A stretch of 64,000 bases of DNA, from positions 1 through 64,000 of the forward strand of contig JAFQZZ010000016.1 of assembly GCA_017405645.1 (NCBI GenBank), in the 5' to 3' direction. The stretch is from Bacillota bacterium. Its GTDB lineage: Bacteria > Bacillota > Clostridia > Peptostreptococcales > Anaerovoracaceae. The translations under genes and the position numbers were made by a program. Positions 32,084 through 45,859 of this stretch are shown piece after piece; position 1 is the first letter of the stretch; every line of letters starts with the position of its first letter. The notes beneath the pieces were generated by a model that was given only the letters and a program-made list of their open reading frames with translations, was not told where the DNA came from and made no database searches.

Positions 32084-32131
32084 GAAAGCAACACTTTTGT
32101 GAGAATAACGTGTCAAAAGGAGGACAAAGAA

Positions 32132-33178
32132 ATGAAATCATTCAAGAAATTATTGGTTCTTGCACTGGTTCTGTCGATGATCGTAATGATCTTCGCAGCC
32201 TGCGGCGGCGGCAGCAGCGACAGCGGCGAAGAAGCCAGCGCAGACCAGACCTACACATTCAAAGTACAGTGCGCTTATCCGCCGGGTGACCAGGCGTATG
32301 ACCTGCACATGCCGATGATCTGCGAAGCGATCACCGAAGCAACAGACGGGCAGATCCAGTTCGAGTATTATGCTCCGGGCGCCATCTGCGAAACCGGACA
32401 GATGCCGGCATCCCTCTCCAAGGGCATCCTGGACTGCGCGTTATCCGCTCCGAACGATACCGCAGCCATCGTACCGGCAGCCTATGCGGAACAGGGCATC
32501 CCCTTCTGGTGGGCAACCCTGGACGATCTGAAGAGCTGCTTATATGACGGCGGCATGATCGACTACCTGAGAGAAGAATACGCAAAAGCTGACATTTACT
32601 ACGGTGCATGGAACGGTGAAGGCCAGTACTGCCTGATGACAGACTTCCCGATCACCTCCGCTGAAGATCTGAAGGGCAAGAAAGTCCGTGCATCCACCAC
32701 TTATGCAATGCTGATGCAGGAACTGGGCGCTTCTCCGGTACAGATGTCCGGCGGCGACATCTACATGGGCATGAAGCTGGGGACCATCGACGGCTACATC
32801 TACTCCGTGGCTGAACTGGAAACTTCTTCCCTGAAAGAAGTCACCAAGTACGTCATGCAGCCGGCCGGCTGCGCGGGCGCTCCCTGTAACTTCCTGTTCA
32901 GCATGAAGGCATGGAACTCCCTGACACCGGAACTCCAGGAAAAGGTCAATCAGGCGCTGGAAGATTCCTTCGTGGCTACGATGGAAGCAGCTGCTGAACT
33001 GGACGAAGATTCCCTGGCCAAGGCTCAGGAATACGGCGTTGAATTTGCAGTAATCGAAGGCGATGCGCTTCAGCCGTTCTATGATGCAGGCGACAAGGTG
33101 CTGGCTTCCCTGGAAGAACAGTATCCGGAAGCACAGGGTGGCTTTGACATCCTGAAAGCATGGAAGGCTAAGCAGTAA
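32132..33178 (+). CDS. dctP: TRAP transporter solute-binding lipoprotein (DctP family), system 2
   Basis: 348 residues from the ATG 7 bases after AAAAGGAGG. Lipobox IFAAC (C24), then a Gly/Ser/acidic linker. KGKKVRA supplies the usual ligand-binding arginine; GTIDGYIYSVAELE replaces the more common GTVDGQENP, and CAYPPGDQAYDLH near the N-terminus is also unlike system 1. The two TRAP systems therefore probably take up different acids. Confidence 0.9.
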   Translation: MKSFKKLLVLALVLSMIVMIFAACGGGSSDSGEEASADQTYTFKVQCAYPPGDQAYDLHMPMICEAITEATDGQIQFEYYAPGAICETGQMPASLSKGILDCALSAPNDTAAIVPAAYAEQGIPFWWATLDDLKSCLYDGGMIDYLREEYAKADIYYGAWNGEGQYCLMTDFPITSAEDLKGKKVRASTTYAMLMQELGASPVQMSGGDIYMGMKLGTIDGYIYSVAELETSSLKEVTKYVMQPAGCAGAPCNFLFSMKAWNSLTPELQEKVNQALEDSFVATMEAAAELDEDSLAKAQEYGVEFAVIEGDALQPFYDAGDKVLASLEEQYPEAQGGFDILKAWKAKQ

Positions 33179-33218
33179 GGACTTCGATACTGAAAAGTGA
33201 TTCATAGGCATTGATTTT

Positions 33219-33246
33219 GGGAGGAAGAGCGGGTTCTCTTCCTCCC
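33219..33246 (+). promoter_or_regulatory. Stable hairpin between dctP and dctQ (system 2)
   Basis: GGGAGGAAGAG / CTCTTCCTCCC, 11 bp, loop CGGGTT, without a clear T run. Same place and likely same purpose as the hairpin in TRAP system 1, though the sequence is unrelated. Confidence 0.75.
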
Positions 33247-33274
33247 GATTTTCAGTGGGAGGAGTGGCATTCAA

Positions 33275-33847
33275 TTGAAATTTCTCGACGTTTTAAGAAA
33301 GATTCGGAAAGTCATCGACACCGTCGATGATTTTGTCGGCAGTATCGCGAAATACGTGCTGCTGGCTATTTTGTTTTGCATGACCTTCGAGGTCATCGCG
33401 CGGTACGGATTCAACAGCCCCACCATCTGGGCGCTGGATATGTCCAAGCAGTTCCTGTGCGCGCTGGGAGCTCTTTCCGGCGGGTATGTCATGCTGTACA
33501 ACCAGCATGTCCGCGTGGATGTGTTCTACGGATCCTGGTCCGACCGGACCAAGGGCATCGTGGACATTATCACCTGCGGCCTGTACCTGATCTTCATGGT
33601 GCTGCTGGTGTATCAGACCTTTATCGCAGCCATCGATTCCTGGGCATTCCATGAACGGGCAGCTACGGTATTCGCACCGCCTCTTTATTATATCAAGACC
33701 ATCATCCCCATCGGCGCCTGCCTGATCCTGCTGCAGGCCATCGCCAAGCTGTTCCATGACATCATTGCCGTGGTGACAGGGGAATCGGAAGACCTGAGGA
33801 CCCTGGATACAGGCGTTCCGGAACTGGAAAGGAGTGAGGAATCATGA
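33275..33847 (+). CDS. dctQ: TRAP transporter small permease (DctQ family), system 2
   Basis: 190 residues; TTG start 10 bases after GGGAGGAG, chosen because no better ATG exists and KFLDVLRKIRKVIDTVDDFVG reads as a normal DctQ N-terminus. Four transmembrane helices. Overlaps the following dctM by 4 bases. Confidence 0.87.
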   Translation: MKFLDVLRKIRKVIDTVDDFVGSIAKYVLLAILFCMTFEVIARYGFNSPTIWALDMSKQFLCALGALSGGYVMLYNQHVRVDVFYGSWSDRTKGIVDIITCGLYLIFMVLLVYQTFIAAIDSWAFHERAATVFAPPLYYIKTIIPIGACLILLQAIAKLFHDIIAVVTGESEDLRTLDTGVPELERSEES

Positions 33848-35160
33848 CTTATCCGCTCTGGTGCTTCGGGCTGCTGTTCGGCGTCATGATCGCCTGCCTG
33901 TTCCTGGGGATCCCGGTAGCGCTGGCCCTGGGCGGCATCGCCACGGTCGCCATCATGATCATCTGGGGATTTGACGGCACCTATGTGCTGGCCAATTCGG
34001 CCTTCAGCACGTTCTCAACCGACACTTACCTGGCCATTGCCATGTTCCTGCTGATGGGCAACATACTGCAGCGATCAGGGATCGCAGACGACCTCTACGA
34101 AATGCTCTATAAATGGATGGGAGGCATCCGTGGGGGTCTGGCAATGGGCACAGTCGTGATCTGTGCGATCTTCGGCGCCATGTGCGGCGGCAGCGGACCT
34201 GCCACCATCACCATGGGGCTGATCGCTCTCCCTTCCATGCTGAAGCGCGGCTACAGCAAATACCTGGCCATGGGCTGCATCGCGGTTGGCGGCGTGCTGG
34301 GCATCATCATCCCGCCCAGCATCCCCATGATCATCCTGGCCACCTACGGGAATCTCTCCGTCGGGAAACTCTTCTTCGGCGGCGTGCTCCCCGGGATCAT
34401 GTGCGCCATCATTTACATGATCTACATCTTCATCATCTGCAACATCAAGAAAGACCTGGGTCCGGTGGTCCCGAAAGAAGAGCGGGCCGGATGGGGCGAA
34501 AAGATGCGCTCCCTGACCGCCATGATCGGGCCGGTGATCCTGATTCTGCTGGTGCTGGGCTCCATCTACACCGGCGCGGCAACGCCAACCGAGGCGGCGG
34601 CCGTCGGCGCCCTGGGATCCTTCATCATCGCCCTGCTGAAGAGAAAGCTGGGGGGCGGCGTCTTCGGGGACATCCTGAAGCGGTCCTTCATCATCACCGG
34701 CATGGTGCTGTGGATTCTGGTAGGAGCCAACCTGTTCAACATCGTCTACAACTACATGGGCGCTTACAACATGCTCATCAACGTGACCTCCGGCCTGCCC
34801 GGCGGGAAGTGGACGGTGCTGATCCTGATGCTGCTGCTGAACTTCATCCTGGGCTGCCTGATGGACGACTTCGCCATCATTACCCTGACGGCGCCGTTGT
34901 ATCTGCCCATTATCAACAGCCTGGGCTTCGATCCACTGTGGTTCGGACTGGTCTTCCTGCTGAATCTGCAGATGGCCTATCTGACCCCGCCTTTCGGCTT
35001 CAACCTGTTCTACCTGAAGAGCGTGGTGCCGAAGGAGATCAAACTGACGGACATTTACAAATCAGTCCTTCCTTTTATCGCTTTGCAGATCATCGCATTG
35101 CTCATCTGCATTTTCGTGCCGGAGATCATTACCTGGCTGCCGAATAAGATGATCGCTTAA
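33844..35160 (+). CDS. dctM: TRAP transporter large permease (DctM family), system 2
   Basis: 438 residues with about 12 transmembrane helices. SGPATITMGLIALPSML and GGVLGIIIPPSIPMIILA are the DctM hallmarks. GC-rich and free of in-frame stops in a second frame as well, but only this frame encodes a recognisable protein. Confidence 0.93.
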   Translation: MTYPLWCFGLLFGVMIACLFLGIPVALALGGIATVAIMIIWGFDGTYVLANSAFSTFSTDTYLAIAMFLLMGNILQRSGIADDLYEMLYKWMGGIRGGLAMGTVVICAIFGAMCGGSGPATITMGLIALPSMLKRGYSKYLAMGCIAVGGVLGIIIPPSIPMIILATYGNLSVGKLFFGGVLPGIMCAIIYMIYIFIICNIKKDLGPVVPKEERAGWGEKMRSLTAMIGPVILILLVLGSIYTGAATPTEAAAVGALGSFIIALLKRKLGGGVFGDILKRSFIITGMVLWILVGANLFNIVYNYMGAYNMLINVTSGLPGGKWTVLILMLLLNFILGCLMDDFAIITLTAPLYLPIINSLGFDPLWFGLVFLLNLQMAYLTPPFGFNLFYLKSVVPKEIKLTDIYKSVLPFIALQIIALLICIFVPEIITWLPNKMIA

Positions 35161-36825: not shown

Positions 36826-38181
36826 TTACACACTATATTCGTGAATCACCGGAAGGGTAAAGCAGAAGACGGAACCCTTCGGGTGATTGCTTTCGTACCA
36901 GATGGAGCCTCCGTGGGCTTCCACGATCTCCCGGCAGATTGCCAGGCCCAGGCCGGTGCCGCCCAGTTCCGTATCGTCCTCGTCCACCCGGAAATACTTT
37001 TCGAAAATCTTTTCCCTGTATTCCGCCGGAATCCCCGGGCCCATATCGGAGACCTTGATAATGATTTGGCTGTTTTCATAGTTGTCGGCGGAAACATGAA
37101 CGGTGTCCCCGGATTCGGAGTACTTGAACGCATTGGAAAACAGGTTGTTCATGACCCAGGTGAGCCGGTCCTTGTCCGCCCGGACGGGAGGCAGGCTGTT
37201 GGGAGCGCCGAAGGTGAACTGGATATGTTTTTTGTCGGCGATCCGTTCGAACTGGGAGATGGCCTGTTCCAGGATGGGCAGGGGATCGCAGATCTCGAAC
37301 AGATAGACCGCCTGGGATGATTCGCTTTTCGTCATCTGCAGCATGTTGCGGATCAGGGTAGTCAGGGTGAAGCTGTCTTCCATGATGGTAGACACCAGCT
37401 CCTGCTGGTCGTCATTGAGTTCCCCGACAGCCGGGTTCTGCAGCAGTTCCGCCCCCATGACGATGGAGGTCAGGGGAGTCTTCAGTTCGTGAGAAACGGA
37501 TGCGAAGAAGTGATTCCGGGATTCCTCGAACTGCTGCTTTTCTTCCATGATGTTCTGCATGGGCTGCAGCCGGCGGCTGATGAAATGCCGGGCGGCGATG
37601 AGGAACACAATGCCCAGGAAAATGAAGAGACCCGCCAGCATCATCATGGTATTGTTGTAGGAGTCCGCGATTTCCCGGATCTGTTCTTTCTGCCGGTCTT
37701 CGACGTAGTGGCGGTAGGTGTTCAGCGCGGTATAGGCGCTGTTCAGGTCCGGGACCAGCGTCAGCCGGCAGAAGAAATAGGCAGAGTCCATGTCTTCGGA
37801 CTCCACATAGGACTGGAACTGATTGAAGCTGTCGGCGAATTTATAGTAACTGGTGGAGACCAGGTACAGGTAATCCTTGGCGGTCTGGTCCGGGGCCTTG
37901 CTGTATTCGTCCTGGTAATAGCGGACAAAGGACGAGAAATTGGTCTGGAAGCTGGCCTCCGGCAGCGATTTGAGCTGCGTGAAGTAATCCGGGATCAGTT
38001 CCGCCTGATAAAACATGAAATGCTGCATCTGGTCGATGTTGTCGATGGATTCGCTGTAGCGGGCCAGTTCCGTGTTCTTTTGTTCGGTGATACCGGCATG
38101 GGAAAACACGACCGTCATGATAAACAGGGCGATGATGATCACGATAATGACTGGATATGCGATGTTCCTGAGGGAGGTCAT
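36826..38181 (-). CDS. Membrane sensor histidine kinase
   Basis: 451 residues. TM1 at about 8-28, an extracellular helical domain of about 150 residues, TM2 at about 179-197, then a short linker instead of a clear HAMP, H231 in SHELKTP, and an ATPase domain (NNLFSNAFKYS, DMGPGIP, GTGLGLAICREIVEAHGG). The all-helical sensor resembles four-helix-bundle sensors, by inference. It likely phosphorylates the output-less regulator 24 bases downstream. Confidence 0.9.
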   Translation of the reverse strand: MTSLRNIAYPVIIVIIIALFIMTVVFSHAGITEQKNTELARYSESIDNIDQMQHFMFYQAELIPDYFTQLKSLPEASFQTNFSSFVRYYQDEYSKAPDQTAKDYLYLVSTSYYKFADSFNQFQSYVESEDMDSAYFFCRLTLVPDLNSAYTALNTYRHYVEDRQKEQIREIADSYNNTMMMLAGLFIFLGIVFLIAARHFISRRLQPMQNIMEEKQQFEESRNHFFASVSHELKTPLTSIVMGAELLQNPAVGELNDDQQELVSTIMEDSFTLTTLIRNMLQMTKSESSQAVYLFEICDPLPILEQAISQFERIADKKHIQFTFGAPNSLPPVRADKDRLTWVMNNLFSNAFKYSESGDTVHVSADNYENSQIIIKVSDMGPGIPAEYREKIFEKYFRVDEDDTELGGTGLGLAICREIVEAHGGSIWYESNHPKGSVFCFTLPVIHEYSV

Positions 38182-38519: not shown

Positions 38520-38837
38520 ATGTGTATGAGAGTTACTGACCACATTATTCTTGGTCACGATGACACTTCAAAGATGATTGAGATTACAGTGGATGGTAAG
38601 AAAATCCCTGCAAAAGAAGGCGAACCAATTCTGGCCGCTTTATTAGCGCAGGACATCATGGTAAATCGTTATACGGTAAAGAGAAATGAGCCCAGAGGGT
38701 TATTCTGCGGTATCGGACAGTGCACAGACTGCGCAATGATCGTAGATGGCAGAGCAAATGTCAGAACATGCATCACTCCTGCTGTTGAAGGTATGGTCGT
38801 AGAAACCCAGCACGGTTATGGAATCCAGGAGGTGTAA
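38520..38837 (+). CDS. Plant-type [2Fe-2S] protein, HcnA-like
   Basis: 105 residues from the ATG after AAAGGAGG. The Fer2_4 fold has cysteines C63, C68, C71 and C84 (FCGIGQCTDC ... RTC). This family is the small electron-transfer subunit of hydrogen cyanide synthase and of octopine, nopaline and hydroxyproline dehydrogenases. First of four redox genes in one operon. Its arginine codons are almost all AGA or CGT, as in ribosomal genes, pointing to high expression. Confidence 0.88.
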   Translation: MCMRVTDHIILGHDDTSKMIEITVDGKKIPAKEGEPILAALLAQDIMVNRYTVKRNEPRGLFCGIGQCTDCAMIVDGRANVRTCITPAVEGMVVETQHGYGIQEV

Positions 38838-38840
38838 GCA

Positions 38841-39956
38841 ATGTTAACTAGAGAATTATTAGTCATTGGTGCAGGTCCTGCCGGTCTGGCTGCGGCGATC
38901 GAAGCAGCGAAAAATGGCGTAAAAGACATTCTGGTTTGCGACCTCAACATGAAAGCCGGCGGGCAGCTGTTCAAGCAGATCCACAAATTCTTCGGATCCA
39001 AAGAACATAACGCAGGTGTCCGTGGTATCGACCAGGGCGTTCAGATGCTGAAAGAAGCGGAAGAACTGGGCATCGAAATCTGGCTGAATTCTGCTGTTGT
39101 TGGTTTCTTCGGCGACAAGATCGCTTGTATCGAACAGGGACAGCCGGACGGCACAAAGAAGATCGTTTACATGCAGCCTAAGACCATCGTTATCGCGACA
39201 GGCGCGCAGGAAAACGTAGTAAGATTCAAGGGCTGGACAACACCGGGCGTTATGGGCGCTGGTGCTGCTCAGACAATGATCAACGTAAACAGAGTACAGC
39301 CGGGCAAGAACATCGTTATGCTTGGTACCGGTAATGTAGGCCTCATCGTATCCTATCAGCTGATGCAGGCTGGCTGTAATGTAGTTTGTATCGTAGAAGC
39401 TGCTCCCGGAATCGGCGGTTACGGCGTACACGCTTCCAAGGTTTCCAGAGCTGGCGTTCCGATCTACTGCAGCCACACAATCAAGGAAGTTAAGGGCGAC
39501 GGTCCTGACGGAAGAGTTTCCGAAGTTACCATTATCGGCTTAGACGAAAAATGGCAGCCCATCGAAGGCACAGAAAAGACCTTCGAAGCAGATACAGTAA
39601 CATTAGCTGCTGGTCTGAAACCGGTTTCCGACCTGGTTAAACTGCAGGATATCGAAATCGTATTCAATAACGCTTTCGGTTGGGTTCCGGTACACAACGA
39701 CAAGATGCAGACAACCGCTAAGGGCATCTACGTTGCAGGCGACACCACCGGTTCCGAAGAAGCGAACACAGCTATGGAAGAAGGCAAACTGGCCGGCGTT
39801 TCCGTTGCGGAAGAATTAGGCTACATCACCATGGACGAAGCGAAGGATCAGAGAGACCAGATCTGGGATAGACTCAGAGGTCTGAGAACCGGTCCGTTCG
39901 GTGAAAAGAGAGCCATCGCCAAGGTCGTACAGATGGGTAAGTTCCCAGTTGACTAA
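38841..39956 (+). CDS. NAD(P)/FAD-dependent oxidoreductase, HcnB-like
   Basis: 371 residues. FAD-binding GAGPAGLAAA at 10-19, second dinucleotide fold GTGNVG at 162-167, and a C-terminal FAD motif GIYVAGDTTGSEEANTAMEEGKLAG. Matches the flavoprotein alpha subunit of HcnABC / OoxA-type amino-acid dehydrogenases, but is shorter (those often exceed 450 residues because the BFD domain is fused). Here the [2Fe-2S] BFD part is the separate gene two positions on. RBS GGAGGTG; 3-base gap from the HcnA-like gene. Confidence 0.88.
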   Translation: MLTRELLVIGAGPAGLAAAIEAAKNGVKDILVCDLNMKAGGQLFKQIHKFFGSKEHNAGVRGIDQGVQMLKEAEELGIEIWLNSAVVGFFGDKIACIEQGQPDGTKKIVYMQPKTIVIATGAQENVVRFKGWTTPGVMGAGAAQTMINVNRVQPGKNIVMLGTGNVGLIVSYQLMQAGCNVVCIVEAAPGIGGYGVHASKVSRAGVPIYCSHTIKEVKGDGPDGRVSEVTIIGLDEKWQPIEGTEKTFEADTVTLAAGLKPVSDLVKLQDIEIVFNNAFGWVPVHNDKMQTTAKGIYVAGDTTGSEEANTAMEEGKLAGVSVAEELGYITMDEAKDQRDQIWDRLRGLRTGPFGEKRAIAKVVQMGKFPVD

Positions 39957-39979
39957 ACCAGGAAAGGAGAATATGAACC

Positions 39980-40474
39980 ATGTCAATTAAAGAAGTTGGA
40001 TATATTAGCCACCAGGAATTGATCGATGCGGAACAGGATATCAGCGCAGAAAGATATGCCAAAGGCCCTGTAGCTGTAATCGAATGCGTTCAGGAGATTC
40101 CGTGTAATCCTTGCGAAGACGCATGTAAATTCGGTGCGATTTATGTTGGAAGTCCTATCACAAATCTTCCGAAGATCCAGGAAGATAACTGCACAGGCTG
40201 CGGTGCTTGCTTAGCAAGATGCCCGGGTCTGGCTATTTTCCTCGTAGACAAAACCTATTCTGAAACAGAAGCGACTGTTGCATTCCCGTATGAATACGTT
40301 CCGACTCCGGAAGTTGGAGAAGAATGGGAAGCTGTTGACAGACAGGGTGCTGTAAAGTGCAAGGGCAAGATCGTTAAGGTCATGAACCCTAAAGCTTTTG
40401 ACCGGACCCCGATCGTTACAGTAGCGATTCCGAAGGAATTTGCTGACGAAGTCAGAAGTGTAAAGAGAAAATAG
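39980..40474 (+). CDS. Double [4Fe-4S] ferredoxin-like subunit
   Basis: 164 residues. Two cluster motifs: C36-x5-C42-x2-C45-x3-C49 and C71-x2-C74-x2-C77-x3-C81 (CTGCGACLARC). The C-terminal half has no cysteine except C126 and contains beta-rich segments. Placed between the flavoprotein and the BFD protein, it probably passes electrons from the flavin to a carrier. The order with neighbours suggests one complex. Confidence 0.85.
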   Translation: MSIKEVGYISHQELIDAEQDISAERYAKGPVAVIECVQEIPCNPCEDACKFGAIYVGSPITNLPKIQEDNCTGCGACLARCPGLAIFLVDKTYSETEATVAFPYEYVPTPEVGEEWEAVDRQGAVKCKGKIVKVMNPKAFDRTPIVTVAIPKEFADEVRSVKRK

Positions 40475-40496
40475 AAACTGTGAAGGAGGCAAAAAC

Positions 40497-40775
40497 ATGG
40501 CAAGATTAGATGATGAAATGCTGGTTTGCCGTTGCGAAGAAGTAACAGTTGGCGAAATCAGAGAAGCAATCGCTCAGGGCGCATTCGACGTCGTAGGCGT
40601 TAAGAGAAGAACAAGAGCCGGCATGGGTCTCTGCCAGGGCAGAACCTGCGAAAAGCTGGTTCAGCAGATCATCTCTCAGGAACTGCACGTAGGTCCGACC
40701 GAAACTGGTGTTACCAGCACCAGACAGCCGGTAAGACCGATCACATACGGTGCATTAGCTGAAGCTGAATGGTAA
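40497..40775 (+). CDS. BFD-like [2Fe-2S]-binding protein
   Basis: 92 residues. C11, C13, C46 and C51 (VCRCEEVT ... GLCQGRTC) form the BFD-type [2Fe-2S] site that is normally fused to the end of HcnB-like flavoproteins. A short Thr/Pro-rich tail follows. RBS GAAGGAGG. Completes the four-gene module. Confidence 0.88.
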   Translation: MARLDDEMLVCRCEEVTVGEIREAIAQGAFDVVGVKRRTRAGMGLCQGRTCEKLVQQIISQELHVGPTETGVTSTRQPVRPITYGALAEAEW

Positions 40776-41041
40776 ACCGTTGATCGACCAAATCAACAAT
40801 AAGGCTGCCGTTTCTGACAAAGAAGCGGCAGCCTGTCACAACTTTACAGGTTGTTATATTTCCCGGATGGGGCCTTCGGGAACCGGAAGGGTCATATAAA
40901 TGGACACTGATTAACAGATTTTTGACGCATTCTTGAATTATCAACAACATGATACTGTTCAATCAAATCCGTTAGTGACATTTGTCACATTCAATGAACA
41001 CATGCTCCGAAACGAGAGGGCATGTAATACGGAGGTATAAT
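40776..41041 (+). promoter_or_regulatory. Regulatory spacer before the racemase-family gene
   Basis: Contains a hairpin AGGCTGCCG / CGGCAGCCT (40802-40834) without a T run, a weaker ACAAC / GTTGT hairpin followed by TATATTT (40838-40861), the palindrome GTGACATTTGTCAC (40975-40988) and an ACATGC / GCATGT hairpin (41000-41025) just before the RBS. The redox operon transcript probably ends or is processed here. Confidence 0.55.
40975..40988. promoter_or_regulatory. CRP/FNR-type palindrome upstream of the racemase-family gene
   Basis: GTGACATTTGTCAC fits GTGA-N6-TCAC exactly. Such sites bind CRP/FNR-family regulators in many bacteria. No regulator of that family is in the window, so the binding protein is unknown. 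Confidence 0.5.
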
Positions 41042-41827
41042 ATGGCTTATATCAAAAACAGACATTTTGGTTATGCAACACCGGAAAATATGGAATGGGT
41101 TATGATGTGTGACCATCAGCAGATGTCCGGTTATTCCGTAGGTATCGTATACATCGAAGATGTATTCTATCCGATGGTTCCGGGTAATGTTGTAAATGCT
41201 TACACCTATGACTTCCCGGTAAGAATGAGAGGGGTTCCGGGCCTGGATATCGACACATTATTCAGAAGAGACCCCATCATCGGCGACAAGATCATTGAAC
41301 TGGCTGAGTACATGATTGAAAAAGAAGGTATCAGAGCTCTGTGCTCCGCATGCGGCTTCTTCGGAAACTTCCATGCACAGGTTGCTGCAGCTCTCGACAT
41401 TCCGGTAGCTCTGTCTTCCTTAGTACAGATCCGCTGGATCAGAGCCGTCATCAAACCGGGACAGAAGATCGGTATCTTAACCGCCGACAAATCTTCCTTC
41501 ACCGATGTACTGCTTGAAAATGTTGGCGTTACCGACAAGAGCGACCTCATCGTTGGTGACTTAAGACATGGCGAACACTTCTCTGCTATTCTCGAATACA
41601 GAGGCGAGTTCAACAACAAGTGTGTAAAAGAAGAAGTAGTTGCTGCTGCTCTGGAACTGCAGAAGCAGGAACCGAACCTGGGCGCTATCCTTCTGGAATG
41701 CTCCGACATGCCGCCGTATGCATATGCTGTACAGCATGCAACACAGCTGCCGGTTTGGGACTTCATTACACTGATCAAGTGGCTGCATAATGGTACCACT
41801 CAGAAACCGTATTCTGGCTGGATCTAA
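41042..41827 (+). CDS. Aspartate/glutamate racemase-superfamily protein
   Basis: 261 residues from the ATG after GGAGGTATAAT. The two-cysteine plan of PLP-independent racemases and Asp/Glu/hydantoin racemase relatives is present: C104 in SACGFFGNF and C220 in LLECSDMPPYAY. Conserved GQKIGILTAD starts the second half. The first 40 residues are distinctive (HFGYATPENMEWVMMCDH). It follows the redox operon and shares its codon bias, so it likely works on the same amino acid, but substrate and even racemase activity are inference. Confidence 0.8.
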   Translation: MAYIKNRHFGYATPENMEWVMMCDHQQMSGYSVGIVYIEDVFYPMVPGNVVNAYTYDFPVRMRGVPGLDIDTLFRRDPIIGDKIIELAEYMIEKEGIRALCSACGFFGNFHAQVAAALDIPVALSSLVQIRWIRAVIKPGQKIGILTADKSSFTDVLLENVGVTDKSDLIVGDLRHGEHFSAILEYRGEFNNKCVKEEVVAAALELQKQEPNLGAILLECSDMPPYAYAVQHATQLPVWDFITLIKWLHNGTTQKPYSGWI

Positions 41828-41911
41828 ACCATACTACAAACTGCGGCTTACCGTTCGCAGTATAATCGACTGACTATCATTACGGTATCAAAAATCTGTT
41901 AGGTTCATTCT

Positions 41912-41946
41912 CGGCGTCCGGGTTTCCGGGCGCCGGGATAGTTTTT
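41912..41946 (+). terminator. Terminator after the racemase-family gene
   Basis: CGGCGTCCGG / CCGGGCGCCG stem (one G-T pair), loop GTTT, with GTTTTT beginning five bases after the stem. Confidence 0.55.
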
Positions 41947-41961
41947 GGACAGAAGGGATGG

Positions 41962-42849
41962 ATGGAAATGGACGGCAATATTCAAAAGTACCTGGCCTTT
42001 CTCAAGACCGTGGAGAACGGGAGCTTCACCAAGGCGGCGGAGATCCTTAACTATTCCCAGTCTTCCATCAGCAAAATGATCGCAGACCTGGAAAAGGAGT
42101 GCGGGATGAGCCTGATGGAACGGGGGAAGAGCGGGATTCGGCTGACGCCGGACGGCCGGGAACTCCTGCCCTACATCCAGCTTCTGTGCGAGGATTTCCG
42201 GATGCTGGAGCAGCATGTGGAGGAGATCGCCGGCATGCAGAGCGGGATGATCCGGATCGGGACCCTGCCCAGCATCGCCATCCACTGGCTCCCCAACATC
42301 ATCCATCGGTTCCGGGAGGATCATCCCGGCATCGAATACGAGCTGATGATCGGGAATTACCGGGAAATCGAGCAGTGGATCGGGGAAGGGCGGGTGGACT
42401 GCGGATTCGTGCAGCTGCCCACACGGCCGGAATTTGACACCATCTTTCTGGAAAGGGATGAGTACAAGGTGATCCTGCCGGCGGGACATCCCCTGGCGGA
42501 GAAGGAAACCATCGATATCCGGGATCTGGAGGGAGCCCCCTTCATGATGCTGGCGGCCAAGGACAACACAGAAGTCCCGGAGATCCTTTCCCGGGCCGGA
42601 GTACAGCCGGATATCCTGCTGACAACCTGGGAGAATCACGCCATCATGGGAATGGTGGAGAGGGGCTTCGGCCTGGCCATTGAGCCGGAGCTCATGTGCC
42701 GCCGGGTGCCTTTCCGCTTCGAGATGCGGAGTCTGACGGAACCCTGCTACCGGGACATCGGGCTGGGCTTCCGGAGCCTGAAGACGGCCTCGTCAGCGGT
42801 GAAAAGATTCGTGCAGTACCTGAAATACCGGGACGATTCGGTGGTATAG
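41962..42849 (+). CDS. LysR-family transcriptional regulator
   Basis: 295 residues. N-terminal winged HTH (KYLAFLKTVENGSFTKAAEILNYSQSSISKMIADLEKE), then a substrate-binding co-inducer domain (MIRIGTLPSIAIHWLPNIIHRF...). It stands between the redox/racemase genes and the NSS transporter gene and may control either. Unlike them it uses CGG-type arginine codons, as expected for a weakly expressed regulator. An ATG two codons downstream is an equally possible start. Confidence 0.9.
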   Translation: MEMDGNIQKYLAFLKTVENGSFTKAAEILNYSQSSISKMIADLEKECGMSLMERGKSGIRLTPDGRELLPYIQLLCEDFRMLEQHVEEIAGMQSGMIRIGTLPSIAIHWLPNIIHRFREDHPGIEYELMIGNYREIEQWIGEGRVDCGFVQLPTRPEFDTIFLERDEYKVILPAGHPLAEKETIDIRDLEGAPFMMLAAKDNTEVPEILSRAGVQPDILLTTWENHAIMGMVERGFGLAIEPELMCRRVPFRFEMRSLTEPCYRDIGLGFRSLKTASSAVKRFVQYLKYRDDSVV

Positions 42850-42857
42850 AAAACAAG

Positions 42858-42890
42858 AAGGCGGCATCCTTTTCAGGATGCCGCCTTTTA
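42858..42890. terminator. Terminator between lysR and the NSS gene
   Basis: Perfect 13-bp AAGGCGGCATCCT / AGGATGCCGCCTT stem, loop TTTC. It can act in both directions between converging genes. Confidence 0.8.
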
Positions 42891-43006
42891 CAATCCGGCG
42901 AGAGCCCGGAAAACCGGCTGGTTTTCCGGGAAATTTTTGTCATGTTTGCGAGGGCAGGGCCCTCATTTTTAGTTTGTAAAGATTGTGTTCATTCATCAAG
43001 CGTTGC

Positions 43007-44374
43007 TTAGAAGTAGCTCTTGATACCCAGGATTACTACCAGAGCAGTAACTACCGGCAGAACGATCAGATACCAGAATCTCAGGCCGCTCGGGATCTTG
43101 AAGTACTTCGCGCCAACTCCGGAGTGTTCAATGAACTTATCCCACCACTTGGTCGCAACAAAGATGGACATGATGATTACACCAATCGGCAGCGTGATCA
43201 GCATCGCTACGAAGTCTGCGAATGTGAAGCAGTCCATGCCAAGCGGTGTAACGTTTGCCAGCTGTGTGAATGCGTGGATGGTGAATGCGCCCAGGATGAC
43301 GCAGATGACGGTTACAATCGCAACAGCCTTGCTTCTGGTCCAACCGAAGCCATCTGCCATTGTGGAAGCCGCACCTTCAAACAGACCCAGTACAGAAGAC
43401 CAACCAGCAGCAAACAGAAGAACGAAGAACAGTGTCCCCCACAGTCTGCCGCCTGCCATTTCTGTGAATACATAAGGCAGGGTCTTGAATACCAGACCGG
43501 AACCACCCGCTACGTCCATGTTGTAGGTGAACAGTGCCGGGAAGATCGCGACACCAGCCAAGATCGCTACAACGATGTTGGACAGGATGATTACGGAGCC
43601 GGAGAACGGGATATCGGAGTTCTCTCTGTCGAGGTAAGATCCGAAGGAGTACAGGGTCGCCATACCTACGCCGGCCAGGAAGAAGCACTGGTTCAATCCG
43701 GCCATAGCAACTTTGAAGAAGCCGCCGGCTTCTGCCATACTTGCTGCATTCGGCTGGAAGACGAATTTCAGGCCTTCGCCAGCGCCCGGCAGCATCAGGC
43801 CTCTGATGGCCAGGATGCACAGGAAGATGAACAGGCCCGGGATCAGGATCTTGTTCGCTCTTTCCAGACCCTTCTGTACGCCGCCCAGGATAACGATGAT
43901 GGTCAGCGCATACAGGATCAGAACGGTGATCCACTTATAAGGCATGTTCAGCTGCAGATTCCAGTAGTAGTCGCCCAGTTCATCAATTCCCATCTTGCTC
44001 AGACCTCCGGAGAGGTATTTGAAGATGTAGAACATTACATCGGATACGATGGTGATGTAGTAGGAAATCAGGATAAGTACCGTAGCAAGACCCATCCAGG
44101 AAATCAGACTCCAAATGCCGCCGGCATTTAAGTCTCTGTAGCAGGCGATTACGGATTTACCGGTATATCTACCCAGTGTTAATTCAGCCCAGCAAAGCGG
44201 GATAGCAATAATTACTGCAAAGATGATACACATCAGCAGGAAGATGCCGCCACCGTTCATACCCATCATGTACGGGAATTTCCAGATAGCGCCGACACCT
44301 ACTGCGTAACCAATGGAACTTACGATAAACCCGAAGGCTGATCCCCATTGTTGTTTTTCAGTATTTTCAGACAT
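43007..44374 (-). CDS. Sodium:neurotransmitter-symporter-family (NSS) amino-acid transporter
   Basis: 455 residues from the ATG at 44374, 6-7 bases after AGGGGGAA; a longer frame upstream lies in the leader. TM1 has the unwound sodium/substrate region (SSIGYAVGVGAIWKFPYMMGMNGGG) found in LeuT/TnaT relatives. About 11-12 helices follow. Bacterial NSS proteins import single amino acids with sodium. Arginine codons are AGA or CGT, as in the redox module, so a high-level importer for the substrate of that module is a reasonable inference. Confidence 0.92.
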   Translation of the reverse strand: MSENTEKQQWGSAFGFIVSSIGYAVGVGAIWKFPYMMGMNGGGIFLLMCIIFAVIIAIPLCWAELTLGRYTGKSVIACYRDLNAGGIWSLISWMGLATVLILISYYITIVSDVMFYIFKYLSGGLSKMGIDELGDYYWNLQLNMPYKWITVLILYALTIIVILGGVQKGLERANKILIPGLFIFLCILAIRGLMLPGAGEGLKFVFQPNAASMAEAGGFFKVAMAGLNQCFFLAGVGMATLYSFGSYLDRENSDIPFSGSVIILSNIVVAILAGVAIFPALFTYNMDVAGGSGLVFKTLPYVFTEMAGGRLWGTLFFVLLFAAGWSSVLGLFEGAASTMADGFGWTRSKAVAIVTVICVILGAFTIHAFTQLANVTPLGMDCFTFADFVAMLITLPIGVIIMSIFVATKWWDKFIEHSGVGAKYFKIPSGLRFWYLIVLPVVTALVVILGIKSYF

Positions 44375-44758: not shown

Positions 44759-45859
44759 ATGAACCGGGGCATCAGCATCAAAAACCTGATTCGGATCGCA
44801 GCAGCCTACTGTGCAGCGTACATGGGAGCGGCTTTTATCAGCGGCCAGGAAACGCTGCAGTTTTATACTGCCTTCGGGTGGTGGGGACTTTTTGGTATGA
44901 TCGCGGGCGTTGCGGTGCTGGTCTATGAAGGGCTGTGCCTGCATCCCGTCATCTGGTCGAACAATCTGACGGACCCTTACCAGGCGCTGGATATCATTTG
45001 CGGTCCGTGGGTAGGAAAAATCATTACGGCAGTGACCCTGGTGCTGCTGGCGGTCAATCTGATTTCCATGTCGGCGGGCTCCGGGGCTGTGGCGGCGGAA
45101 AACTACGGGCTTCCGAATCTGGCGGGCCGCTGCATCGTTCTGGGCGGCGCCGTGCTGGTGGTCCTGCTGGGACTGGACCGGATCGTGGAGGTCCTGGGAT
45201 TCATAGGCCCGGTGACCATCGGCCTTCTGCTGATCGTGGCAGTTGCATCGTTGGCAGGGGCGCAGCATTCTCCGGCGGAGGGCATGGCCCTGACAGCCAC
45301 TGAAGTGGCCTTCAAGGGCGCCGGGACCTGGTACATGTCCGCCATCAAGTATACGGGCTCAGCCATATTGCTGACTCTGCCCCTGTATATGATCGGCGGC
45401 GTCCGGGCCCAAAACCGGAAGGAAGCGGAAATGACCTCTTTTACCGCCCTGATTCCCCTGTTGGGAGTATGGATCCTGGTGTTTTTCGCCCAGGCGGGGA
45501 GCATTTCGTCCGTGGGCGCCACCGAAGTGCCCAACGTCATGCTGGCCCGGCTGCATACCCCGTTTTTGGCGCCGGTGTTCGGAGGCTGCATCATGCTGGG
45601 GACATTCTGCGGGATGACCATGGTATTATGGAGCCTGGTGAGGAAAGCAGCGGAGGAAGGGACCCCGAAATACCGGATCCTGACGGTGGGGATCGGCGCG
45701 GCAGCGCTGGTGATCTCCGGGCTTCTGCCTTTCTCCAGGATCCTGAACCTGATGTTTTCCGTGGCTTTCTGGCTCGGATTCATCCTGCTGGGGATGATGA
45801 TCGCCGGACGGATCCGGCAGCGCAGGAACGGGAAAGACTGTTTAGATGACAGAAACTGA
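44759..45859 (+). CDS. YkvI-family membrane protein (APC-superfamily-like transporter)
   Basis: 366 residues with about ten transmembrane helices. The N-terminal IAAAYCAAYMGAAFISGQETLQFY, with the helix break GAAFISGQE, is characteristic of the YkvI/COG3949 group. Substrates of this family are not established. It is monocistronic with RBS GGAGAAG, and diverges from the NSS gene. Confidence 0.8.
   Translation: MNRGISIKNLIRIAAAYCAAYMGAAFISGQETLQFYTAFGWWGLFGMIAGVAVLVYEGLCLHPVIWSNNLTDPYQALDIICGPWVGKIITAVTLVLLAVNLISMSAGSGAVAAENYGLPNLAGRCIVLGGAVLVVLLGLDRIVEVLGFIGPVTIGLLLIVAVASLAGAQHSPAEGMALTATEVAFKGAGTWYMSAIKYTGSAILLTLPLYMIGGVRAQNRKEAEMTSFTALIPLLGVWILVFFAQAGSISSVGATEVPNVMLARLHTPFLAPVFGGCIMLGTFCGMTMVLWSLVRKAAEEGTPKYRILTVGIGAAALVISGLLPFSRILNLMFSVAFWLGFILLGMMIAGRIRQRRNGKDCLDDRN

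Follow-up and report, generated by a model that had tools for sequence, protein, structure and literature searches.

The core genes and their neighbors

We analyzed a window of 64,000 nucleotides (contig JAFQZZ010000016.1 of assembly GCA_017405645.1), which is contig C30 of G000, a metagenome-assembled genome (MAG) of a Bacillota bacterium (1.43 Mb, 85.8% complete). Between positions 38520 and 44371 it carries four genes for iron-sulfur and FAD-binding proteins (Fer2, FAD, Fer4 and BFD, together termed the core), a racemase-superfamily gene (Rac), a LysR-type regulator and a sodium symporter of the NSS family. Nearly all relatives of this core adjoin a gene for a catalytic subunit of the DAO fold, which is absent here. 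Gene calls and profile matches recover all seven genes at or very near the positions given in an earlier note on this DNA, with the families that it had named and with intact cluster motifs. Below, L, G and C numbers denote loci, genomes and contigs of G000, respectively. The features of the locus are:

36826..38181, minus strand: divergent sensor kinase flanking the core (profile matches); L149 and L150 have kinase and response-regulator genes at the equivalent position, making them a synteny marker for the same locus
38520..38837, plus strand: Fer2, small [2Fe-2S] subunit, HcnA/OdhC-like (PF13510, Fer2_4, E 9e-30)
38841..39956, plus strand: FAD electron-transfer subunit, HcnB/OdhA/PdhA-like, with an NAD-type second Rossmann motif (Pyr_redox_2; best NCBIfam match TIGR01372, soxA)
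39980..40474, plus strand: Fer4, double [4Fe-4S] ferredoxin-like subunit, PdhF-like (Fer4 matches; 4+4 = 8 cluster cysteines)
40497..40775, plus strand: BFD-like [2Fe-2S] subunit, PdhX-like, SO_alpha_A3 (PF04324 and PF17806; C-X-C-X32-C-X4-C)
40776..41038, no strand: BFD-Rac gap of 263 bp, site of the DAO catalytic gene (and NSS) in relatives
41039..41827, plus strand: Rac, racemase-superfamily enzyme of the PRK07475 group (NF005679/PRK07475, 266.4 bits, cutoff 231)
41962..42849, plus strand: LysR-type regulator (PF03466 and PF00126)
43007..44371, minus strand: NSS-family sodium symporter (PF00209, E 1e-46; NF037979, 112 bits, cutoff 50)

The Fer2 protein has the motif C-X4-C-X2-C-X12-C (CGIGQCTDCAMIVDGRANVRTC, in 38520-38837), fitting the definition C-X4-C-X2-C-X11-12-C of the small [2Fe-2S] subunit (PMC4575208), and is 88–91% identical to its counterpart at the head of the five-gene module in L009, L010 and L150. 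The FAD protein, of which this is the sole copy found in G000, displays two GxGxxG motifs (G10-G12-G15 and G162-G164-G167) that are kept across 82 sequences. Its second Rossmann motif ends in an acidic residue, which presumably indicates NAD(H) as the nucleotide of this subunit, as we take it to do in such folds. The double [4Fe-4S] gene keeps its position in nearly all relatives.

As the earlier note had observed, all these genes except lysR share the arginine codon usage of the ribosomal genes. The codons AGA and CGT account for 6/6 arginines in Fer2, 11/11 in FAD, 5/6 in Fer4, 9/9 in BFD, 9/10 in Rac and 8/8 in NSS (48 of 50 in sum) as against only one of the 22 in LysR, where CGG is used 17 times. 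The corresponding fraction is mostly 0.75–1.0 in the ribosomal genes of the window and 0.0–0.3 in most of its other genes.

The absent catalytic gene and its counterpart on contig C6

Comparison with 80 related loci, found via the FAD protein, revealed Fer2-FAD-Fer4-BFD-DAO as the usual gene order, often followed by Rac and with NSS or another transporter nearby. A DAO gene is present in 51 of the 53 loci that have more than 4 kb of flanking sequence on both sides. The nearest relatives, L009, L010/L149 (both G017) and L150 (G030), show the order Fer2-FAD-Fer4-BFD-DAO-NSS-Rac. The alignment of the window DNA to L009, L010 and L150 is unbroken through BFD, breaks in the gap and resumes near Rac, with the window NSS in inverted orientation relative to these loci; its product is 67–71% identical to the NSS proteins encoded between DAO and Rac in L009, L010 and L149. 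Together with the divergent kinase/regulator pair, which lies beside the core alike in the window, L149 and L150, this implies that the window harbors the same locus as its nearest relatives, minus the DAO gene and with a rearranged NSS. No DAO gene was detected anywhere in the window locus, including the 263-bp BFD-Rac gap, bearing out the local absence asserted in the earlier note. A DAO remnant in this gap was considered and rejected, the matches being at chance level only; the gap holds a GC-rich inverted repeat (approximately 40802-40834, recognized by eye) and the ribosome-binding site of Rac.

The earlier note had left two candidates for the catalyst, the flavoprotein itself or an unlinked subunit, and had proposed a search of the genome for a DAO- or OoxB-like gene. 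Such a search of the assembly recovered four full-length DAO genes, on contigs C6, C16, C23 and C26, with 76% identity between DAO_C16 and DAO_C23 and 61% between DAO_C6 and DAO_C26. In a tree of 81 DAO proteins, DAO_C6 and its orthologs from both congeneric genomes (G001 and G002) nest inside the operonic DAOs of L009, L010, L149 and L150 (support 100/99), with the DAO_C26 group as sister to this entire assemblage (100/100), outside the operonic DAOs. All 15 arginines of DAO_C6 are encoded by AGA or CGT, as opposed to 12–14% in its flanking genes, 19% in DAO_C26 and 53–69% in DAO_C16 and DAO_C23; it is thus the only one of the four with the arginine codon signature of the core.

DAO_C6 also has a stable neighborhood of its own. 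In G000 it stands in the order symporter, hydrolase, DAO_C6, MerR, DnaJ, ClpB, of which the run from hydrolase to ClpB is common to the independently assembled G001; in G002 the left part is seen, with the DAO_C6 ortholog following the same symporter and hydrolase genes. It is preceded by a near-consensus promoter (TTGAAA-17-TATAAT) and then a leader, about 140 nt long, in which two hairpins are predicted (L091:7661-7802 on C6; also in L178 and L180). Between species this leader is 88–89% identical, the coding sequence 79–89% and the DNA upstream of the promoter 52–55%; against G002 the leader is better conserved than the coding sequence itself. Among 41 genomes searched, the leader occurs only in this genus, as one copy per genome, and an Rfam scan of it returned no score near the gathering threshold.

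Given its nesting within the operonic DAOs, its core-like codon signature and its occurrence at the same separate place in all three species of the genus, we interpret the unlinked DAO_C6 as a relocated catalytic subunit. Accordingly, we favor, with a probability of about three in four, a split dehydrogenase of the αβγδ type (as in the PdhA-F-X-B proline dehydrogenase (PDH), opine dehydrogenase (OpnDH) and D-hydroxyproline dehydrogenase (D-HypDH)), with its core in the window and its catalytic gene relocated to C6. This agrees with the second of the two options in the earlier note.

Going beyond the observed anatomy, synteny, phylogeny and shared codon adaptation of the core and DAO_C6, we infer the docking, substrate, direction and electron acceptor of the following route. 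The ancestral operon would have had the DAO-fold catalytic subunit as its fifth gene, after Fer2-FAD-Fer4-BFD; in this genus that gene would have moved elsewhere, coming under its own strong promoter and conserved 5' leader. The NSS protein would mediate sodium-driven uptake of the substrate and Rac the interconversion of its enantiomers, one of which would be oxidized by DAO_C6 docked on the window core, with the electrons probably passing via FAD and the Fe-S clusters to NAD+ and/or ferredoxin.

An AlphaFold model of the operonic DAO ortholog from L009 (predicted local distance difference test score (pLDDT) 92) matches the β subunit of the Pyrococcus horikoshii L-proline dehydrogenase (1Y56_B; Z-score 47.0, root-mean-square deviation (rmsd) 2.0 over 368 residues) and glycine oxidase (4YSH) equally well, both at Z 47. 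A glycine-oxidase-type Arg-Pro motif is found in DAO_C6 and DAO_C26, and 1Y56_B lacks it at the aligned place. DAO_C16 and DAO_C23 lack it too, for which reason they probably act on other substrates.

Three observations weigh against the assignment of DAO_C6 to the window core. First, the core was not found in the assemblies of G001 and G002, which do possess DAO_C6; since these are only 73–75% complete, we regard this as uninformative rather than contrary. Second, G002 lacks a racemase beside its DAO_C26 (see below). Third, at least one other core copy, cut at contig ends, exists in G000, and DAO_C6 could in principle use that copy instead. A second Fer2 gene is truncated at the start of contig C15 (L157:1-285), and an identical BFD C-terminus occurs at contig ends before both DAO_C16 and DAO_C23 (L089:1-101; end of L090). 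On the simplest reading, one or two further Fer2-FAD-Fer4-BFD-DAO modules probably exist, having been lost where near-identical copies collapsed in assembly.

The racemase, its substrate and competing assignments

The invariant cysteines C105 and C221 (39/39 sequences) and an AlphaFold model (pLDDT 90) point clearly to a predicted racemase fold for Rac, with the two-cysteine pair of the Asp/Glu/hydantoin racemase superfamily (PRK07475 group). It scores 23.2 bits against PF01177, under the cutoff of 31, and a sequence search of the PDB with Rac gave no match, so fold comparison was used instead. The best structural matches of the model are allantoin, hydantoin and Asp racemases (Z 14–17.6), headed by the allantoin racemase 5LFD (Z 17.6, rmsd 3.2 over 204 residues). 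This fold also hosts decarboxylases and isomerases.

The earlier note had suggested that co-occurrence of all six genes in other genomes would favor a single pathway. With Rac counted as present at 44% identity or above, it occurs in 20 of the 26 related loci whose FAD protein is at least 58% identical to that of the window, compared with two of the 54 others; this co-occurrence of core, DAO and Rac in the close clade lends support to a putative pathway containing the racemase. The expectation held for these components alone, as the particular NSS is not consistently linked to the core. Among 391 genomes of the class only three contain Rac at E ≤ 1e-55, which is too rare for a phylogenetic-profile test.

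Compatible with a core served by DAO_C6, and bearing on its substrate, is a hydroxyproline, imino-acid or opine route in which Rac, as a non-orthologous 2-epimerase, would stand in for the proline-racemase family. In its favor, homologs of Rac with 40–49% identity lie beside trans-3-hydroxyproline dehydratase (T3LHypD) and AcnX in G058 (L153:1585-5227), beside AcnX, MttB/corrinoid proteins and Octopine_DH in G434 (L221:1217-9343), and beside Octopine_DH in G241 (L222:8322-10237), and some loci with core and Rac include DHDPS-family and aldehyde dehydrogenase genes. However, these homologs may not be orthologous to Rac of the window, and by their scores the DHDPS proteins are DapA and the aldehyde dehydrogenases of the acetylating type, rather than hydroxyproline enzymes. 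Near the window core, no gene specific to hydroxyproline was seen. Moreover, many other loci with core and Rac have instead a class-III aminotransferase and a 2-hydroxyacid dehydrogenase, along with RidA, as neighbors. We regard the hydroxyproline or opine route as improbable, though the best placed of the alternatives. An iron alcohol dehydrogenase is also among the varying neighbors, and this variation between loci means that no single substrate is implied; assigning one from the neighborhood was rejected, the clues being in conflict. Literature searches for a published cluster containing this racemase, or for links to carboxymethyllysine or fructoselysine, turned up nothing decisive.

A second pairing of a DAO with a racemase is found on C26, where DAO_C26 lies directly upstream of Rac_C26, which is 55% identical to the window Rac. 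Both belong to a single-strand run, IorA-IorB-Pta-DAO_C26-Rac_C26-Orn/Lys/Arg decarboxylase (L092:4191-12891), which is conserved in G001. IorA and IorB are of the indolepyruvate-ferredoxin-oxidoreductase type and Pta is a phosphotransacylase; together they would suit a step that oxidizes the 2-oxo acid product to an acyl phosphate, comparable to the oxidative branches of Stickland metabolism (PMC13285125). The earlier note would have taken a DAO gene located elsewhere, with a different racemase beside it, as contrary to its pathway. Such a pair literally exists, yet the pathway is not refuted by it, since DAO_C6 matches more closely than DAO_C26 and, in the nearest relatives, a single run holds core, DAO, NSS and Rac together.

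It could still be argued that DAO_C26 and Rac_C26 are the partners of the window core, leaving DAO_C6 to act alone or with another core; the racemase paralog directly after DAO_C26, with IorA-IorB-Pta before it, mirrors the pairing of DAO and Rac in the operon. Against this stand the branching of DAO_C26 outside the operonic group, its low-expression codon usage, unlike that of the core, and the lack of its racemase in G002, and we hold this assignment to be unlikely, slightly more so than the hydroxyproline route. In addition to DAO_C6, DAO_C26 may nevertheless plug into the same core. By extension, one chromosomal core might serve several unlinked and differently regulated DAOs (DAO_C6 and DAO_C26) as a plug-in dehydrogenase, with DAO_C6 under an undescribed, genus-specific structured leader RNA. 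We offer this as a tentative idea, with the odds clearly against it. If true, it would extend 'subunit-exchange' from one gene cluster to the whole genome, and provide small-genome gut anaerobes with a cheap way of adding substrates.

The local absence of DAO might alternatively be an artifact of assembly, the real chromosome having it between BFD and Rac. The MAG is indeed incomplete, with other copies of the module broken at contig ends. However, the BFD-Rac junction lies within a contig at least 64 kb long and consists of ordinary intergenic sequence. Further, the separate place of DAO_C6 recurs in G001 and, with the same preceding symporter and hydrolase, in G002, which excludes a chimeric contig or a mis-assembly of one MAG, and makes such an artifact quite improbable. 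Least credible of all, and not supported as one of the two options of the earlier note, is a core devoid of a dedicated catalytic subunit, where catalysis would fall to the flavoprotein alone or to Rac and FAD as a pair: the lack of a DAO in the window locus is consistent with it, as is one relative, L046, whose Fer2-FAD-Fer4 genes have no DAO detected in the 10 kb to each side, but DAO adjoins the core in nearly all relatives, a codon-matched DAO ortholog is encoded elsewhere in the genome, and the FAD protein is by sequence of the sarcosine-oxidase-α/thioredoxin-reductase-type electron-transfer fold, not the substrate-oxidizing DAO fold.

Relationship to characterized dehydrogenases and flanking genes

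The features characterizing the class of αβγδ PDH, OpnDH and D-HypDH are a Fer2 protein, an FAD protein with GxGxxG motifs, 4Fe-4S and BFD proteins and a DAO; all are encoded in this genome, the DAO outside the cluster rather than in it. A further hallmark of these enzymes is dehydrogenase activity once assembled, with FMN lodged between the α and β subunits. In the αβγδ enzyme γ is ferredoxin-like and δ BFD-like, an assignment that is itself partly inferred. The closest arrangement is that of the dye-linked L-proline dehydrogenase of Thermococcus profundus (pdhA-pdhF-pdhX-pdhB; PMC4364671), with the same modules in the same order (α, γ, δ and β genes). It differs in that PdhA is unsplit there and divided into Fer2 and FAD here, and in that the catalytic gene here lies outside the operon, elsewhere in the genome. 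The added ferredoxin, which the earlier note had presented as a departure from known systems, is hence already part of the Thermococcus enzyme.

The flavin-containing opine dehydrogenases (OdhABC/OoxAB/NoxAB) likewise combine Fer2, FAD and a DAO-fold catalytic subunit. In that of Bradyrhizobium japonicum, OdhB1-C-A-B2, two catalytic subunits share one set of partners, an experimentally established 'subunit-exchange' (PMC4575208). All these genes lie in one cluster, as opposed to the dispersed catalytic genes here, which are further accompanied by the ferredoxin and a free BFD protein. The D-hydroxyproline dehydrogenase (α4β4γ4), which in its pathway acts downstream of an epimerization (PMC4575208), follows the same subunit logic. 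Its epimerase, however, is of the proline-racemase family, unlike Rac of the Asp/Glu/hydantoin racemase superfamily, and the window locus has no gene for a DHDPS-family deaminase.

The HcnA, HcnB and DAO-type HcnC subunits of hydrogen cyanide synthase resemble Fer2, FAD and DAO, respectively. The window has no linked HcnC-type DAO and nothing that points to the formation of HCN from glycine, and the extra Fer4 and BFD genes are a better fit to the αβγδ subtype than to HcnABC.

With both αβγδ and subunit-exchange arrangements already known, what is new here is a modest variation: dispersed catalytic genes, one of which has its own conserved leader and keeps the expression signature of the core. 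This illustrates how the half of a metabolic complex that carries out catalysis can escape neighborhood-based annotation, and how codon adaptation can point to a lost partner gene. The substrate of the Fer2-FAD-Fer4-BFD-DAO and Rac clusters of Clostridia is directly testable.

Neither lysR nor the particular NSS is consistently linked to the core across the related loci; LysR is not linked at the equivalent place in the nearest relatives, and in G002 it is on a separate contig without NSS. An Rfam scan of the window locus gave no score near the gathering threshold, and the upstream regions of the core, Rac, NSS and DAO_C6 share no regulatory motif beyond ribosome-binding sites and short words.

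Further transporter genes lie on both sides of the locus. Upstream are genes for a TRAP transporter (32099-35160), with similar TRAP genes near the same core in L149. Adjoining NSS is a gene for a 366-aa membrane protein (44759-45859) with no Pfam match at E ≤ 0.001, which displays a weak kinship (23–28%) to transporters that in L155, L011, L041 and L151 are encoded beside Rac or the core.

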